DNA of 8,671 nucleotides from Peptostreptococcaceae bacterium (lineage in GTDB: Bacteria; Bacillota_A; Clostridia; Peptostreptococcales; Acidaminobacteraceae), in NCBI GenBank assembly GCA_013619035.1, contig JABXKX010000223.1:1-8671 (forward strand), in the 5' to 3' direction. The translations under genes and the position numbers were made by a program. Shown in pieces: positions 1 to 8,573 of the stretch (its first letter is position 1; every line of letters begins with the position of its first letter). The notes beneath the pieces were generated by a model. That model was not told where the DNA came from and made no database searches. It was given only the letters and a program-made list of their open reading frames with translations.

Positions 1-26
1 ACCCTAAATTAGTCTAGAAAAACCTC

Positions 27-56
27 TTGACATTAATTGTGAAGAAATAGTAATAT
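27..56 (+). promoter_or_regulatory. sigma-A-type promoter for the surE leader
   Basis: A perfect -35 hexamer TTGACA lies at 27-32. An 18-nt spacer leads to TAATAT at 51-56, which matches 4 of 6 positions of the -10 consensus. Transcription would start near base 62-64, about 20 nt before the first RAT element, which is the arrangement expected for an antiterminator-controlled leader. No other plausible promoter is seen between here and the first gene. The start site is inferred. Confidence 0.7.
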
Positions 57-80
57 GTAGGTAAGAATAATTCTATATTT

Positions 81-108
81 GGATTGTGACTGTTCGGCAG
101 GCAAGACC
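81..108 (+). promoter_or_regulatory. RAT element 1 (LicT/BglG-family antiterminator RNA site)
   Basis: This 28-nt element begins GGATTGTGACTG and ends CAGGCAAGACC, which matches the LicT/SacT/BglG-family ribonucleic antiterminator pattern (GGATTGTTACTG...CAGGCAAAACC). The outer GG/CC and TG/CA pairs flank the usual asymmetric internal loops. The apical stem is CTG/CAG plus a possible U-G pair around a TCG loop. Its 3' part (103-108) is also the start of terminator stem 1, so the two structures exclude each other. The likely ligand is the antiterminator encoded at 2209-3036. Confidence 0.9.
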
Positions 109-160
109 TTAATTAACGAAAGAAATCATGTTTCTTTTGCTACTTAAGGTCTTTCTTTTT
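103..160 (+). terminator. Terminator 1, competing with RAT 1
   Basis: Bases 103-112 pair perfectly with 144-153 (AAGACCTTAA with TTAAGGTCTT). A second inner helix pairs 117-125 with 131-139, with one G-U pair. The hairpin is followed by a T-rich run at 151-160 and further T-rich sequence. Six bases of the left arm belong to RAT 1. Without antiterminator this should stop transcription about 90-100 nt after the promoter. Confidence 0.88.
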
Positions 161-172
161 AATTTTATATTT

Positions 173-200
173 GGATTGTTACTGCGATGCAGGCAATACC
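173..200 (+). promoter_or_regulatory. RAT element 2
   Basis: This is the best consensus match of the three RATs: GGATTGTTACTGC, a GAT loop, then GCAGGCAATACC. The apical stem is a full CTGC/GCAG. It lies only 13 nt after the T-rich tail of terminator 1, so it forms a second switch in series with the first. It overlaps its terminator by only three bases (198-200, ACC), much less than the other two modules. Confidence 0.92.
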
Positions 201-243
201 TCGTTTACTTTGGATATAGTCCATAGTTTGTCGAGGTTTTTTT
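198..243 (+). terminator. Terminator 2, competing with RAT 2
   Basis: ACCTCG (198-203) pairs with CGAGGT (232-237). Inner pairing ACT/AGT (207-209 with 225-227) and TGGA/TCCA (211-214 with 220-223) extends the hairpin. Seven consecutive T residues follow at 237-243. The left arm shares ACC with RAT 2, so folding of the RAT would remove the three outermost pairs of the stem. Confidence 0.85.
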
Positions 244-406
244 GTACTTATTTTCTAGAGATTTGTACAGTGCTTTAGTCCAAGTAATCATCCAGACGAG
301 AATTTGCTTTCTGGACGAGGAAAACGTTTTTAAGGAATTATTAAAAGAAAGTCGTAATGTTTTATGAATGAAACAACTATTAATTAAAAGGTAAAGGGGG
401 AGCAAC
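244..406 (+). other. Long untranslated leader before surE, with an inverted repeat
   Basis: This is a 163-nt gene-free stretch between terminator 2 and the surE start. It contains the inverted repeat TCCAGA (291-296) and TCTGGA (310-315) around a 13-nt loop. GACGAG occurs twice, at 295-300 and 314-319. A palindrome AAAACGTTTT lies at 321-330. The distal end carries a strong GGGGGAG ribosome binding site at 396-402, four bases before the ATG. No convincing second promoter and no third RAT were found. Any role of the inverted repeat is unknown. Confidence 0.6.
319..332 (+). promoter_or_regulatory. Possible weak catabolite-responsive element (cre)
   Basis: The 14-mer GGAAAACGTTTTTA fits the CcpA-site pattern TGWNANCGNTNWCA except at two positions (G for T at position 1, T for C at position 13), and its core is palindromic. 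It lies roughly 260 nt downstream of the predicted transcription start, so if real it would act as a roadblock. AT-rich palindromes around CG occur by chance, so this is tentative. Confidence 0.3.
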
Positions 407-1384
407 ATGAGTACGAGATTTAAAAAACTAGTTGGTTTTGTTTTAGCATTAACTCTGATGACATCTTCACTAATCGGGTGTACAGGTAGTGCTGCAGAAT
501 CAAAAGTTGAAACAGTTACACCAGAAGTTATGTTAGTTGATAACGGGGTTTCTGTTGAAGAACGAGCTGATCGCCCAATGCGTATTTTACTTATAAACGA
601 TGATGGTTTCGATGCTATGGGATGTCAAATGTTATTTGATGATCTAAAAGCAGAAGGCTTTGATGTTTGGATGGTAGCACCAATCGAAAATCAAAGTGGT
701 ACAGGAACATCTATCAAATGGAACAAAGAAGCACATGAACTTGTAGAGTATGGTGACAACAAATATGCGTTTGAAGGTACACCTTCAGATTGTTTTAAAG
801 TTGCAGTGAATTACATAATGCCTGAAAAGCCGGATTTAGTGGTTTCTGGTGTTAATGACGGACCAAACTTTGGAGAGGTTCAATTCAACTCAGGTACGGT
901 TGGTGGTGCAGCTAGAGCAGTTAGACATGGTTATCCAGCAATTGCAGCAAGTTTAAGTTACCTTGGTGGTCCTGATTTAGAATCATACATGGAACCCGCG
1001 GTTGCATTTACAGTGGATATGGTGAAAGAATTAAATGATGAGTGGAAAGCTGGAAACATGCTAATGCCTTTAGGTACGGGCGTAAGTATTAATTATCCTG
1101 CTGTACCGTATGAAGAAATTCAAGGTGTTAAATTTATTGAAAATGAAGAAGTGTATACTGATTTCCAAAACTATGCATACGATGAAGAAAAAGGTGGCAT
1201 CTTCAACTCAATGGAAATGGATGTATTCCAAGGTCAAATAGCAGATCCTGAAGTAGTAACTGATTTAACTGAAGCGATGAGAGGTTTTGTAACAATGACT
1301 GTTATAGATGCCAATTGGAATGCGGATCAGGAAAAAGTGGATTACATGCAGTCTGTACTTGGAGAACTTGAAGCAAACAATTAA
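407..1384 (+). CDS. surE: SurE-family phosphatase, exported lipoprotein
   Basis: SurE enzymes are divalent-metal phosphomonoesterases acting on 5'- and 3'-nucleotides, and some split polyphosphate. Here the SurE domain starts at about residue 58. The metal and active-site motifs are intact: NDDG (64-67), the ENQSG loop with S97, GTPSDC (124-129), SGVNDGPN with N154, and SGTV (162-165). The C-terminal GFVTMTVID strand also fits the family. Unlike typical cytoplasmic SurE of about 250 residues, this 325-residue protein has a signal peptide: basic RFKK, a hydrophobic stretch, and lipobox LIGC with C25 as the lipidated residue, then a linker of about 30 residues. It should sit on the outer face of the membrane. 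The start is supported by GGGGGAG at 396-402. It is first in an operon behind two RAT/terminator switches, which suggests induction by beta-glucosides. The physiological substrate is not known. Confidence 0.9.
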   Translation: MSTRFKKLVGFVLALTLMTSSLIGCTGSAAESKVETVTPEVMLVDNGVSVEERADRPMRILLINDDGFDAMGCQMLFDDLKAEGFDVWMVAPIENQSGTGTSIKWNKEAHELVEYGDNKYAFEGTPSDCFKVAVNYIMPEKPDLVVSGVNDGPNFGEVQFNSGTVGGAARAVRHGYPAIAASLSYLGGPDLESYMEPAVAFTVDMVKELNDEWKAGNMLMPLGTGVSINYPAVPYEEIQGVKFIENEEVYTDFQNYAYDEEKGGIFNSMEMDVFQGQIADPEVVTDLTEAMRGFVTMTVIDANWNADQEKVDYMQSVLGELEANN

Positions 1385-1412
1385 AACATAACATTGTAAT
1401 AAAGGCGGAAAT

Positions 1413-2102
1413 ATGGAAAAACTATCAGTAGAACTTTACTTTGCAAGACACGGAAAAACAATGCTTAATATAGCTGACAGAATGCAAGGTTGGGCGGACA
1501 CGCCTTTAACAAATGAAGGTACTGAGGTTGCATCCTTTTTAGGAAAAGGCCTTAGGGATCAAAAATTTATAAGTGTGTATACGAGTGATAGTGGCAGAAC
1601 CATTGAAACTGCTAAGATTGTCCTTGAAAACAGCGGACAGACAAATCTTCGAATACAAAAAAGAAAACAGTTAAGAGAAGTTTGTTTTGGTGATCATGAA
1701 GGTGAATTGAATCAGGTATATTGGGATAAACTATCATCTATAGGTGGCTTCTCGATTGATCAATTTCAGGAGAAACCTGATATGAAAGCATTTTTAGATC
1801 TTAATGTTACTTTAGACGCCAGTGGTCAAGCTGAAAACTGGAAACAATTAATAACAAGATCAAAATCAGAACTTGATAGAATTGTACAGGAATCAATGAA
1901 CTTGGGTGGTGGAAAAGTGCTAATAGTCTCTCATGGTGTGACGATAATGACATTGCTCACAGAAATGAGTGATAACTTGATTGCTATGGTACCTTTAGAG
2001 AACTCAAGTATCTCAAAAGTTGTGTATAAAGATGGAGAGTATAAAATATTATCCATAAATGATATGACTTATATCCAGAGAGGCATGTCTGCTGATAAAT
2101 AA
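1413..2102 (+). CDS. Histidine phosphatase family protein (phosphoglycerate mutase-like)
   Basis: This 229-residue protein belongs to the histidine phosphatase superfamily, branch 1. The catalytic RHG is at residues 12-14 (H13 would be phosphorylated), with R62 in SDSGRTIETA, E89 in LREVCFGDHEG and the second histidine in SHG (H174). The motif GWADTPLTNEG is also characteristic. No signal peptide is seen, so it should be cytoplasmic. The family includes phosphoglycerate mutases and broad sugar-phosphate or cofactor phosphatases; an insertion after residue 97 and the degenerate C-terminus make a phosphatase more likely than a glycolytic mutase, but the substrate cannot be read from sequence. 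It starts 28 nt after surE behind AAGGCGG (1402-1408) and is probably co-transcribed with it. No terminator was found after it. Confidence 0.85.
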   Translation: MEKLSVELYFARHGKTMLNIADRMQGWADTPLTNEGTEVASFLGKGLRDQKFISVYTSDSGRTIETAKIVLENSGQTNLRIQKRKQLREVCFGDHEGELNQVYWDKLSSIGGFSIDQFQEKPDMKAFLDLNVTLDASGQAENWKQLITRSKSELDRIVQESMNLGGGKVLIVSHGVTIMTLLTEMSDNLIAMVPLENSSISKVVYKDGEYKILSINDMTYIQRGMSADK

Positions 2103-2129
2103 GAATACTTTAATTATTAGCCTCAAGAC

Positions 2130-2158
2130 TTGACTCATTATCCTTACAAACGTAAAAT
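2130..2158 (+). promoter_or_regulatory. sigma-A-type promoter for the antiterminator gene
   Basis: TTGACT (2130-2135, 5 of 6) is followed after exactly 17 nt by TAAAAT (2153-2158, 5 of 6). This is the strongest promoter-like sequence in the 106-nt gap between the phosphatase and the antiterminator gene. No RAT or terminator lies between it and the coding region, so it should give antiterminator mRNA independent of sugar. Confidence 0.72.
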
Positions 2159-2208
2159 GAAGTAAAGAGACAGATAATATGAACGGATAAATATGGTGGT
2201 GATTTGAA

Positions 2209-3036
2209 TTGCTTATAAGTAAAATTTTCAATAATAATGTTGCTTTAATAAAAAACAACGATAAGAAAGAAATCGTTGTTATGGGCTGTGGCATCACATT
2301 TGGGAAACGAGTGGGAGACTACTTGGATGATGACAAGGTGGAAAAGGTTTTCAAACTTCAGCAAGAAGAAACCTCTGAAAAGTTCAAATTGTTATTAGAA
2401 CATATCCCAATGGAAGAAGTAGCACTTTGTTATGATATAATAGAATATGCAAAAGGAATTATAAATGTTGAGTTTAGTGACTATATATATGTTACATTAA
2501 CGGACCATATCAACAGAGCTTTAAAGTTATTTGATGACGGGTATGATATCTCAAATCCACTGATTTGGGAGATTAAGAGATTGTATCCAAAGGAATTTGC
2601 AGTCGGAAAAAAGGCTCTAGAGCTGATTGAAGAGGCAATGGACAAACAAATACCTGAAGCTGAAGCAGGGAATATTGCAATGCATCTTATAAATGCACAA
2701 CTCAATCCATCTTCAAATGAGTTTAGCAATGTTTTTGAAATCACACAGAAGGTACAAGACATCTTGAATATTGTTAAATATACCTTTAAAATTGAGCTAG
2801 ATGAGAAATCACTTGATTTCGAAAGATTTGTAACACATTTAAGATTTTTCTTTAGAAGAGAAAAAGGTCAGGCAAAAGGTACTGAAGCAGATGATTTTCT
2901 GCTGTTACAGATAAAAGCCACTTATGAAGAAGCATACAGTTGTATGAAGAAAGTGGAACAATATTTAGGAAAAGTGTTATCGAGTAGTCAGCAACTGTAT
3001 TTAACAGTGCATATACAAAGGGTAACTCAGTTATAA
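2209..3036 (+). CDS. licT: LicT/BglG-family transcriptional antiterminator
   Basis: This is an RNA-binding antiterminator that stabilises RAT hairpins and prevents terminator folding. The order is a CAT RNA-binding domain (about residues 1-56, with the family-typical start ISKIFNNNVALI and GCGITFGKRVGD), then PRD1 and PRD2. All four regulatory histidines are in place: H100 (TDHIN) and H159 (AMHLINAQL) in PRD1, H210 (FVTHLRFF) and H268 (TVHIQRV) in PRD2. In the family, the permease phosphorylates PRD1 to inhibit and HPr phosphorylates PRD2 to activate. The 275-residue length is normal. The start codon is TTG, chosen because it places the conserved N-terminus correctly behind GGTGGTG (2195-2201); upstream ATG/GTG codons are out of frame. 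It has its own promoter and is followed by RAT 3 and the PTS gene. It is the only candidate regulator here for all three RATs. Confidence 0.95.
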   Translation: MLISKIFNNNVALIKNNDKKEIVVMGCGITFGKRVGDYLDDDKVEKVFKLQQEETSEKFKLLLEHIPMEEVALCYDIIEYAKGIINVEFSDYIYVTLTDHINRALKLFDDGYDISNPLIWEIKRLYPKEFAVGKKALELIEEAMDKQIPEAEAGNIAMHLINAQLNPSSNEFSNVFEITQKVQDILNIVKYTFKIELDEKSLDFERFVTHLRFFFRREKGQAKGTEADDFLLLQIKATYEEAYSCMKKVEQYLGKVLSSSQQLYLTVHIQRVTQL

Positions 3037-3046
3037 ATAAATAGTT

Positions 3047-3073
3047 GGATTGTGACTTTAAGTAGGCAATACC
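3047..3073 (+). promoter_or_regulatory. RAT element 3, divergent
   Basis: The element starts GGATTGTGAC and ends AGGCAATACC, keeping the outer stem and internal-loop sequences of RATs 1 and 2. It is 27 nt, one base shorter than them. Its apical part (CTTTAAGTAG) cannot form the usual four-pair CTGC/GCAG stem; only an ACT/AGT pairing around a TTA loop is available. It begins 11 nt after the antiterminator stop codon. Its 3' ten bases are the left arm of terminator 3. Confidence 0.85.
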
Positions 3074-3117
3074 TAAAATTCAGAATCGTATTCTGATTTT
3101 TGGTATTGCCTTTTTAT
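3064..3117 (+). terminator. Terminator 3, competing with RAT 3
   Basis: AGGCAATACC (3064-3073) pairs perfectly with GGTATTGCCT (3102-3111). An inner helix pairs TCAGAAT (3080-3086) with ATTCTGA (3090-3096) and AAAA with TTTT, leaving one mismatch and one bulge. The T-run TTTTTATT follows at 3111-3118. Ten bases are shared with RAT 3. This should limit transcription from the antiterminator gene into the PTS genes. Confidence 0.92.
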
Positions 3118-3127
3118 TATGATTTAT

Positions 3128-3133
3128 GGGAGG
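3128..3133 (+). promoter_or_regulatory. Ribosome binding site that fixes the PTS permease start
   Basis: GGGAGG lies six bases before the ATG at 3140. An in-frame ATG at 3119 would add seven residues, but it falls in the T-rich tail of terminator 3 and has no ribosome binding site, so the later start is preferred. Confidence 0.85.
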
Positions 3134-3139
3134 ATACAC

Positions 3140-6464
<3,325 letters not shown>

Positions 6465-6512: not shown

Positions 6513-6776
6513 ATGAGTAAAATTGTTAAAATATTAAATGAAACTGGTTTGCACGCTAGACCAGCATCTCAATTGGTACAAGTGGCTAATAAATTTGCAT
6601 CGGATGTTAGTATTGAGTTTAATGGTAATGAAACAGATGCAAAATCGATTTTGGGTCTTATGGGACTTGGATTAAAGAAGGATGACGAAATTAATGTTAT
6701 TGCAAATGGTCATGATGCTGCAGCTGCAGTTGATGCGATTGTAAACTTAATTGATCAAAAGTTTGGTGAGAATTAG
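6513..6776 (+). CDS. ptsH: HPr, phosphocarrier protein of the PTS
   Basis: HPr carries phosphate from Enzyme I to EIIA domains and to PRD regulators. The active histidine is H14 in GLHARPA. The regulatory serine is S45 in AKSILGLMGLG, equivalent to Ser46 of other Gram-positive HPr, so control by HPr kinase/phosphorylase and CcpA is possible. The 87-residue length is standard, and the presence of the histidine excludes Crh. GGAGG (6502-6506) lies six bases before the ATG. It follows bglA by 48 nt with no terminator, so it is probably part of the beta-glucoside transcript. Whether it is the only HPr of the cell cannot be seen here. Confidence 0.97.
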   Translation: MSKIVKILNETGLHARPASQLVQVANKFASDVSIEFNGNETDAKSILGLMGLGLKKDDEINVIANGHDAAAAVDAIVNLIDQKFGEN

Positions 6777-6799
6777 TCATACCGTAATAGAGCAATATA

Positions 6800-6829
6800 T
6801 TAAAGAGGTGAAATTATTCACCTCTTTAA
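6800..6829 (+). other. Perfect 13-bp hairpin between ptsH and ptsI
   Basis: Bases 6800-6812 pair without mismatch to 6817-6829 around an ATTA loop; the core is AGAGGTGAA/TTCACCTCT. The 3' side continues AAATCTATAAAC, with no U-tract, so it is not a standard intrinsic terminator. It ends about 13 nt before the AAGGAG ribosome binding site of ptsI. It could protect the 3' end of upstream mRNA, mark a processing site or cause partial termination; the role is inferred. Confidence 0.75.
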
Positions 6830-6854
6830 ATCTATAAACTGTAAGGAGTTAATC

Positions 6855-8573
6855 ATGAAATTAGGAAGTGCTGCTTCACCGGGCATTGGACTTGGTAAAG
6901 TATTATTAATAAAAAATGAAGAGCTAAAGATTGAAAATCTAAGCATAGATAATGCTTCAGAAGAAATAAATAAGTTAGAAGAAGCCATCAGAAAATCTAA
7001 ACAACAATTAGAGTTGATTCGTGACAAAGCTTATTCTGAACTTGGAAAAGATAAAGCTGAAATTTTTGAGGCTCATTTGATGCTTTTGGAAGATCCAGAA
7101 GTCATGAAAAGAACCGTTGCAAAAATAACAACAGACTTATCAAATGCTGCCAGTTCGTATCATCAAGTGGTAGGAGAGTTTATTCTATTATTTGAGTCAA
7201 TGGATAATGAATATATGAAAGAAAGAGCTGCAGATATAAAAGATGTATCTGATAGAGTTCTAAGAAATATGTTGAATATCAGCATTGTTGATTTATCGAT
7301 TTTAAGTGAAGAAGTTATTTTAGTATCTGATGATTTAACGCCTTCTCAAACAGCAACAATGGATAAATCAAAAGTAATTGGATTCTTAACAGATATTGGT
7401 GGTAGAACTTCTCATTCAGCGATTATGGCTAGATCTTTAGAAATTCCAGCAGTTGTAGGATTAAAAGATATTACAAAATCTGTGGTAGCAGGTGATATAG
7501 TAGCTTTTGATGGCGATACGGGTATGGTTACTATTAATCCTTCTGATGAAGCTATCTTAAACTATGAGAAGCAAAAAGAAGAACAGAAAGAACAAAAGAA
7601 AGCATTAGAAAGTATCATTGGACAATCAAGTGTGACACGAGATGGTGTTAAAGTTGAAATTGCTGGGAATATTGGTACACCAAATGATATTGCTGGTTTA
7701 TTAAAAAATGATGCTGAAGGTGTTGGTCTTTATAGAACGGAATTCATCTATATGGATAGAGATACATTGCCTACAGAAGATGAACAATATGAATCTTATA
7801 AAAAAGTACTAGAAGCGATGAATTCTAAACCAGTGGTTATCAGAACACTTGATATTGGTGGGGATAAGGAAGTTTCTTATCTGAAGTTTGAGCATGAGAT
7901 GAATCCATTCTTAGGTTATAGAGCCATCAGACTATGTTTAGATAGAACCGATATCTTTAAAACACAATTAAGAGCGCTTTTGAGAGCCAGTGTTTATGGA
8001 AACCTTAAAATAATGTTCCCTATGATCTCTAGTTTGGAAGAATTGTTAGATGCCAAAGAGATGTTGGAAGTCTGTAAAGAAGAACTTACAAAAGAAGGAA
8101 TAGAGTATTCTAATACCTTTGAAGTGGGTATGATGATTGAAGTACCTTCTGCTGCGATCATCAGTGATATTTTAGCCAAACATGTGGACTTCTTCAGTAT
8201 TGGTACAAATGACTTGGTTCAGTATACCTGCGCAGTGGATAGAATGAATCAACAAATTAGTAATCTATACAATCCTTTTAATCCAGGTGTTTTAAGACTG
8301 ATTAAGATGGTGATTGACAATGGTCATAAAGAAGGGCTTTGGGTTGGTATGTGTGGTGAAACTGCAGGAGACCCAAGAATCATACCAATTCTGATAGGTT
8401 TTGGTTTAGATGAATTTAGTATGAGTCCGATTTCCATTTTAAAAGCTAGAAAATTGATTAGATCTTTAGATGCTTCTGAGATGAAGTTAATCGCTGATAA
8501 AGTGATTCAAATGGGAAGAGCAGATGATATTGAAGCTTATATAGCTGAGTATTTTAGCCGTGAATCGAATTAG
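6855..8573 (+). CDS. ptsI: Phosphoenolpyruvate-protein phosphotransferase (PTS Enzyme I)
   Basis: Enzyme I takes phosphate from PEP and passes it to HPr as the first step of all PTS transport. The N-terminal half contains the HPr-binding helices and the phosphorylated H187 in GGRTSHSAIMARS. A charged Lys/Glu/Gln-rich linker spans about 232-256. The C-terminal PEP-binding barrel has GLYRTEF (R294), VIRTLDIGGDKE (R330), GMMIEVPSA (425-433), FSIGTNDLVQYT and the catalytic C500 in VGMCGETAGD. At 572 residues it is complete. The start is supported by AAGGAG at 6843-6848. It is the last gene of the cluster, separated from ptsH by 78 nt that hold a strong hairpin, and is followed directly by a terminator. 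Confidence 0.97.
   Translation: MKLGSAASPGIGLGKVLLIKNEELKIENLSIDNASEEINKLEEAIRKSKQQLELIRDKAYSELGKDKAEIFEAHLMLLEDPEVMKRTVAKITTDLSNAASSYHQVVGEFILLFESMDNEYMKERAADIKDVSDRVLRNMLNISIVDLSILSEEVILVSDDLTPSQTATMDKSKVIGFLTDIGGRTSHSAIMARSLEIPAVVGLKDITKSVVAGDIVAFDGDTGMVTINPSDEAILNYEKQKEEQKEQKKALESIIGQSSVTRDGVKVEIAGNIGTPNDIAGLLKNDAEGVGLYRTEFIYMDRDTLPTEDEQYESYKKVLEAMNSKPVVIRTLDIGGDKEVSYLKFEHEMNPFLGYRAIRLCLDRTDIFKTQLRALLRASVYGNLKIMFPMISSLEELLDAKEMLEVCKEELTKEGIEYSNTFEVGMMIEVPSAAIISDILAKHVDFFSIGTNDLVQYTCAVDRMNQQISNLYNPFNPGVLRLIKMVIDNGHKEGLWVGMCGETAGDPRIIPILIGFGLDEFSMSPISILKARKLIRSLDASEMKLIADKVIQMGRADDIEAYIAEYFSRESN

Follow-up and report, generated by a model that had tools for sequence, protein, structure and literature searches.

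RAT switches are textbook examples of antitermination and serve as parts in synthetic biology; the usual picture is of a single unit for each gene. In the bgl operon of E. coli, two terminators flank the antiterminator gene bglG (PMC9499468), and in the bgl operon of C. acetobutylicum RATs lie upstream of both bglG and bglT, deletions in both having been tested with reporters (PMC12628678). Among riboswitches, the name pseudo-cooperative is given to complete units that follow one another in tandem and respond to one ligand, TPP being an example (PMC9481103); the terms 'antiterminator' and 'protein-binding' do not occur in that review of tandem riboswitches. A C. difficile review names the bglG motif, RF03530 (PMC11477304), while the accessible parts of PMC12502629 and PMC2965389 hold nothing on RAT arrays. 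Among the matches listed for the open-access literature, titles and abstract openings gave no recognisable case of a single leader that holds several RAT modules in a row. Gordon et al. (2015) is said to be a genome search for RAT sites, and RAT arrays may already be mentioned there or elsewhere in the subscription literature.

In the window (the whole 8671-nt stretch of DNA analysed here), a promoter-like site is followed by RAT/terminator modules 1 and 2, genes for a SurE-type protein, a histidine phosphatase and LicT, a third RAT/terminator, and then genes for EIIBCA, GH1, HPr and enzyme I (Table 1). The arrangement resembles E. coli bglGFB in placing terminators on both sides of the antiterminator gene on one transcript (PMC9499468). 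It differs in having two modules in the leader, where E. coli has one terminator before bglG, together with one between licT and the PTS gene, and in the two phosphatase-type genes that precede licT. The C. acetobutylicum bglGTH operon likewise has one RAT before bglG and another before bglT (PMC12628678), but these lie on either side of bglG, whereas the window has RATs adjacent to each other within one leader. With pseudo-cooperative tandem riboswitches the locus shares the use of several sensor-plus-expression-platform units for one signal in one leader (PMC9481103), although there the RNA binds a small molecule and here the partner would be an antiterminator protein. We consider it very probable that a single transcript meets two LicT-controlled conditional terminators in the leader, one after the other, before it reaches licT.

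Table 1. Features of the window and, below them, loci from the genome scan that carry RAT/terminator modules in series
Feature or organism	Position or locus	Strand	Remarks
Sigma-70-type promoter-like site, TTGACA-N18-TAATAT (putative)	27..56	+	10/12 consensus matches; start predicted at about 63
10 nt preceding RAT1	71..80	+	Matches 163-172 at 9/10
RAT1 antiterminator hairpin	81..108	+	RAT pattern and pairing
Intrinsic terminator 1	103..160	+	Stem 103-153, U-rich tract to 160; 6 nt shared with RAT1
10-nt stretch from terminator 1 to RAT2	163..172	+	Near-copy of 71-80
RAT2 antiterminator hairpin	173..200	+	RAT pattern and pairing
Intrinsic terminator 2	198..243	+	Stem 198-237, T-run 237-243; 3 nt shared with RAT2
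SurE-family protein, lipobox-like N-terminus (by eye)	407..1384	+	PF01975, E 2.7e-44
Histidine phosphatase superfamily protein	1413..2102	+	PF00300
LicT/BglG-type antiterminator	2209..3036	+	PF03123 (CAT RNA-binding domain) and two PF00874 (PRD) stretches
RAT3	3047..3073	+	RAT pattern; between licT and PTS gene
Intrinsic terminator 3	3064..3115	+	Stem 3064-3111, T-run to 3115; 10 nt shared with RAT3
Beta-glucoside-type PTS EIIBCA	3140..5014	+	In-frame ATG at 3140 with GGGAGG upstream; listed ORF start 3119
Glycoside hydrolase family 1, probable 6-phospho-beta-glucosidase	5034..6464	+	PF00232; substrate suggested by context
HPr	6513..6776	+	PF00381
PTS enzyme I (PtsI)	6855..8573	+	PF02896, PF05524, PF00391
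Rossellomorea marisflavi	L003		At least 2 complete modules
Clostridioides difficile (record titles)	L004, L006, L015		4, 4 and 3 modules
Brevibacillus laterosporus	L008		At least 2 complete modules
Domibacillus iocasae	L009		At least 2 complete modules
Clostridiales MAG21	L010		At least 2 complete modules
Salinicoccus	L012, L019		At least 2 complete modules
Bacillus glycinifermentans	L013		At least 2 complete modules
Peribacillus kribbensis	L014		Two modules and a third RAT with weaker hairpin
Virgibacillus halotolerans	L016		At least 2 complete modules
Klebsiella oxytoca, Klebsiella michiganensis	L017, L020		At least 2 complete modules

The PTS and sugar-cleaving genes (EIIBCA, GH1, HPr and enzyme I) all lie downstream of the RATs and are predicted to be under their control. 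The genes for HPr and enzyme I (6513-8573) share this gene run with a substrate-specific PTS, and the first gene of the beta-glucoside operon encodes a SurE-family protein whose N-terminus looks lipobox-like by eye.

The three RATs are beyond chance: the pattern GGATTGTNAC...GGCAADACC matches the window three times, always on the plus strand, and none of 200 dinucleotide shuffles of the window contains a match. All named pairs are standard ones (eight in RAT1, eight in RAT2 and seven in RAT3), and a hairpin with a U-run comes after each RAT. The leader counts as a tandem array in the sense of an untranslated stretch with two or more RATs that each have a terminator of their own. These matches, shuffles and hairpins bear out the original prediction of two complete modules before the first gene, and the RAT/terminator overlaps are as it gave them: module 1 has 6 shared nt (103-108), module 2 has 3 (198-200). 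The fold of the leader that it had proposed as a check, run on 55-250, gave z = -4.14, with none of 200 shuffles as good.

With the named pairs forced, isolated RAT1 has an energy of -4.4 kcal/mol and isolated RAT2 of -7.4 kcal/mol, in agreement with the expectation that RAT1 is the weaker; left unforced, RAT1 adopts a fold of its own without the two outer G-C pairs as named. Forcing RAT1 within module 1 costs 13.1 kcal/mol (from -27.0 to -13.9) and forcing RAT2 within module 2 costs 5.6 kcal/mol (from -23.4 to -17.8), so that the terminator is the predicted default fold without protein. RAT and terminator folds are predicted to be mutually exclusive in both modules. When the whole leader is folded, about 10.6 pairs run between the modules, against 22.5 within module 1 and 18.4 within module 2, and the modules may thus not fold fully independently. 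A predicted 7-bp hairpin at 67-87 (67-73 with 81-87) would mask the 5' half of RAT1; it is a possible anti-antiterminator, perhaps a chance one.

Covariation was assessed in 61 distinct RATs from 92 sequences, unweighted for kinship. The first apical pair is supported by it (paired in 59 of 61; shuffle maximum 56), the second is too invariant to be informative (paired in 57 of 58; the shuffles reach 57), and the third shows none (21 of 51; shuffle mean 21.9). A search of the window with Rfam RF03530 (bglG-cis-reg) returned no match, whether E was limited to 1 or to 0.5, and the modules, which fail the gathering cut-off of 80 bits, are not classed in that family. Against the same cut-off, loci L025, L014 and L017 reach only 29-37 bits, with 36.5 for L025, a single-RAT locus in a C. 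difficile genome.

The same operon start, with identical letters in RAT1, RAT2 and RAT3, is present in Clostridiales MAG21 (L010), whose DNA is 91.2% identical to the window over 6326 positions compared. The search of relatives for both modules, suggested with the original prediction, thus found them kept in one relative, where the double-module stretch (81-245) differs at a single one of its 165 positions. By comparison, the remaining leader sequence (246-390) has differences at 22 of 144 positions (15%; Fisher p 5e-7), as have 253 of 1451 third codon positions (17%) in the SurE-type, phosphatase, licT and PTS genes (Fisher p 8e-12). The promoter-like site (27-56) shows one difference in 30 positions and the stretch 57-80 four in 24. 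Of 6183 intervals of 165 columns, 20 hold at most one difference, and these start either at 75-83, where they span both modules, or at 2944-2954, where they take in RAT3 and the last part of licT. Modules 1 and 2 and the third RAT/terminator appear to be under strong constraint, as judged from this one pair of genomes. Elsewhere in L010, a match resembling a tandem glycine riboswitch (RF03166, E 2.6e-11, below the gathering score) lies at 6604-6764 (+), upstream of the operon and on the other strand. SurE-type matches occur in 29 of the 61 genomes around that of the relative (G001), but the sole close full-length homologue is the one in G001 (94% identity). The remaining 28 are partial and only distantly related (30-41%), and the operon is therefore not traceable further.

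The 10 nt that precede RAT1 and RAT2 (71-80 and 163-172) are identical at nine positions, a similarity equalled by 24 of the 72390 10-mer pairs in 1-400. Together with the RATs themselves, this suggests that the unit was duplicated and that the terminators diverged afterwards. One module may be a copy of the other, and the second could then be a neutral duplicate that adds nothing while a single module does the work; the variation of Clostridioides-type arrays between three and four copies is what slippage would give. Such a neutral copy seems to us highly improbable, since the modules have changed so little relative to the rest of the leader and to third codon positions, and since terminators 1 and 2 are unlike in sequence while each still folds.

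In 1-400, the site at 27-56 is the sole promoter-like site with 16-18 nt spacing and at least 9 of 12 consensus matches. The same scan over 1-3200 found 13 sites where shuffles lead one to expect 12.8, so this promoter is proposed as a candidate. A transcription start between 160 and 172, which according to the original prediction would assign the modules to different transcripts, was checked by consensus only and with a divided answer: among sites spaced by 16-18 nt, none with 9 of 12 matches would give such a start, and at 137-163 one 9/12 site, its spacer 15 nt long, would start RNA at about 170. This latter site, unchanged in L010, is what a second promoter inside module 1 would have to use in order to start an RNA at about 160-172 that meets one switch only. 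We regard two such transcripts as more improbable still, because the site would overlie the terminator hairpin and U-tract, falls outside the 16-18 nt spacing of the scan, and belongs to a class of matches that occurs at the chance rate given above. Moreover, RNA started from 27-56 would pass both modules anyway.

The operon encodes its own cognate CAT-PRD antiterminator, recognised by PF03123 and two PF00874 stretches, whose sequence matches the solved LicT chains 1tlv, 1h99 and 1l1c (PDB). A protein search returned 2305 homologues at E <= 0.001 among 2853 candidates, the closest other being 95% identical. The LicT of the operon is the probable ligand of RAT1-3. Genome-wide counts were taken from the relative's genome (L010/G001); there, the strict RAT pattern has three matches, all in this operon, and two CAT-domain proteins are encoded. 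The gene for the second (L089, 3529-4443) is flanked, within 3503-4458, by RAT-like sites of another spelling (CAGGCATGAACC, CAGGCATAAGCTT; by eye) and precedes EIIC-like and EIIA-like frames (by eye). The least probable reading of all is an AND gate for two sugars in which RAT1 and RAT2 are read by different antiterminators: the two do differ in apical-loop and internal-loop letters (TGTGAC/CAAGACC versus TGTTAC/CAATACC) and the relative has two CAT-domain proteins, but we rank it low because the second CAT gene has differently written RAT-like sites of its own on both sides (by eye), and RAT3, beside licT, joins the 5' half of RAT1 to the 3' half of RAT2, as expected if a single LicT reads all three.

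For two LicT-controlled terminators in series, the following mechanism can be proposed. In the absence of beta-glucoside, LicT would be inactive, being phosphorylated through the PTS as in others of its family. RAT1 and RAT2 would then lose to the more stable terminators, and uninduced polymerase would halt at about 154-160 or, after leak-through, at about 238-243. Once substrate is present, dimers of active LicT would hold RAT1 and RAT2 as each emerges, and the held RATs would take the 5' bases of their own terminators (6 nt in module 1, 3 nt in module 2), allowing the polymerase to read into the genes for the SurE-type protein, the phosphatase and LicT. The test would recur at RAT3, ahead of the PTS, GH1, HPr and enzyme I genes, and licT would be positively autoregulated. 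Here we infer the promoter, termination in vivo, LicT binding and control by phosphorylation. With two switches ahead of licT, the basal amount of LicT would be lowered by both leak rates multiplied together. For transcription from this promoter, licT would need two antitermination events and the PTS gene, which also lies behind RAT3, three. The original idea that two such events are needed on one transcript finds support in the anatomy of the leader and its near-perfect conservation in one relative.

The expected effect of doubling was calculated with a product model that assumes independent sites, a leak p0 and hyperbolic binding, and leaves out LicT dimerisation and phosphorylation. In this model two modules in series would lower a leak of 10% to 1%, or of 5% to 0.25%, from which the predicted lower leakage follows. 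The effective Hill coefficient would rise only from 1.0 for one site to 1.13-1.16 for two, so doubling should pay off mainly through tightness rather than steepness; the 'steeper response' of the original prediction is borne out slightly and was overstated. When feedback through LicT was modelled, one module gave no bistable range at p0 of 0.2, 0.1, 0.05 or 0.02. With two modules, bistability was absent at 0.2 and limited to one grid value (3.19 K) at 0.1, and it extended over 3.66-5.55 K for a p0 of 0.05 and over 3.93-12.74 K for 0.02.

Arrays in other bacteria were sought in a collection of one genome per species (84,980 species, contigs of at least 3,000 bases), using exact RAT letters with 45-75 nt between RATs, a spacing and spelling by which other arrays are missed. 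The scan returned 20 stretches, all of which were examined. A module was called complete where a hairpin with a T-run, predicted at -14 kcal/mol or lower, comes after the RAT. Of 800 positions picked at random in the 20 loci, 72 also pass, so a lone terminator call is not strong by itself. At least two complete modules in series were found in 14 of the 20 stretches, L010 included (Table 1). Given these and the two sites in E. coli bgl and C. acetobutylicum, it is incomplete to say, as the original prediction does, that known systems place one module before a gene or operon. In L001, L002, L011 and L018 several RATs lie close together with a qualifying terminator behind just one. Stretches L005 and L007 were rejected as arrays, since each has one RAT-like match without a terminator and looks like chance. 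For ten of the 18 multi-RAT loci the next gene was identified by Pfam, being PTS EIIC in eight (L004, L008, L009, L011, L012, L013, L014 and L016), a LamB porin in L017 and a carboxylesterase in L018.

Within the order of the L010 genome, 39 of 297 genomes contain the strict RAT pattern, with 85 matches forming 67 loci. Eight of these loci are arrays (starts at most 200 nt apart): one double, four triple and three quadruple. Seven are alike in RAT letters and spacing, that of the C. difficile genome G002 included, and the eighth is L010's own. A survey of Bacilli gave a RAT match in 109 of 398 genomes, with at least seven close RAT pairs, counted by eye, among the matches listed.

The Clostridioides difficile arrays (L004, L006 and L015) lie on the minus strand, for example at reverse-complement 4088-4475 in L004. 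They consist of three or four modules about 104 nt apart, the number varying between genomes, ahead of a PTS EIICB gene that was identified by Pfam in L004 and by the same protein start in L006 and L015. Like the window, they place RAT/terminator modules in series before a PTS gene; unlike the window's, their modules are near-identical to one another. In the L004 genome a CAT-domain gene lies upstream of the array, and this gene is not behind the array because the array follows it. Klebsiella has two RAT/terminator modules in series at 5460-5632 of L017 and a matching array in L020; the two CAT-domain matches of the L017 genome sit on contigs other than that of the array. In Neobacillus sp. 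(L002, reverse-complement 4310-4484), three RATs recur with a 43-nt period and the only terminator by our definition follows the last; as predicted from these folds, the RATs are arrayed there and the terminators are not.

The doubled LicT-type switch looks like a real and conserved, little-described variation on a known switch. Its layout is uncommon and common to scattered other bacteria, and its mechanism is ordinary. The occurrence of units in series, up to four, in several lineages suggests that cells tune leak through the number of terminators; such arrays would be a protein-gated counterpart of pseudo-cooperative tandem riboswitches. A broader proposal, tentative and on the whole doubtful, is that RAT arrays are a recurrent design of adjustable copy number, arrived at in several lineages by multiplying the entire antiterminator/terminator unit, in which the basal level would fall as a power of the number of units. 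Placing licT behind the array would, in the model, make the autoregulated response sigmoidal and possibly bistable, because the antiterminator gene then depends on the product of two hyperbolic steps. If this is true, two modules could turn a graded induction into a two-state one, which a single module cannot do in the same model. With licT behind a double gate, the operon makes bistability by doubling directly testable.
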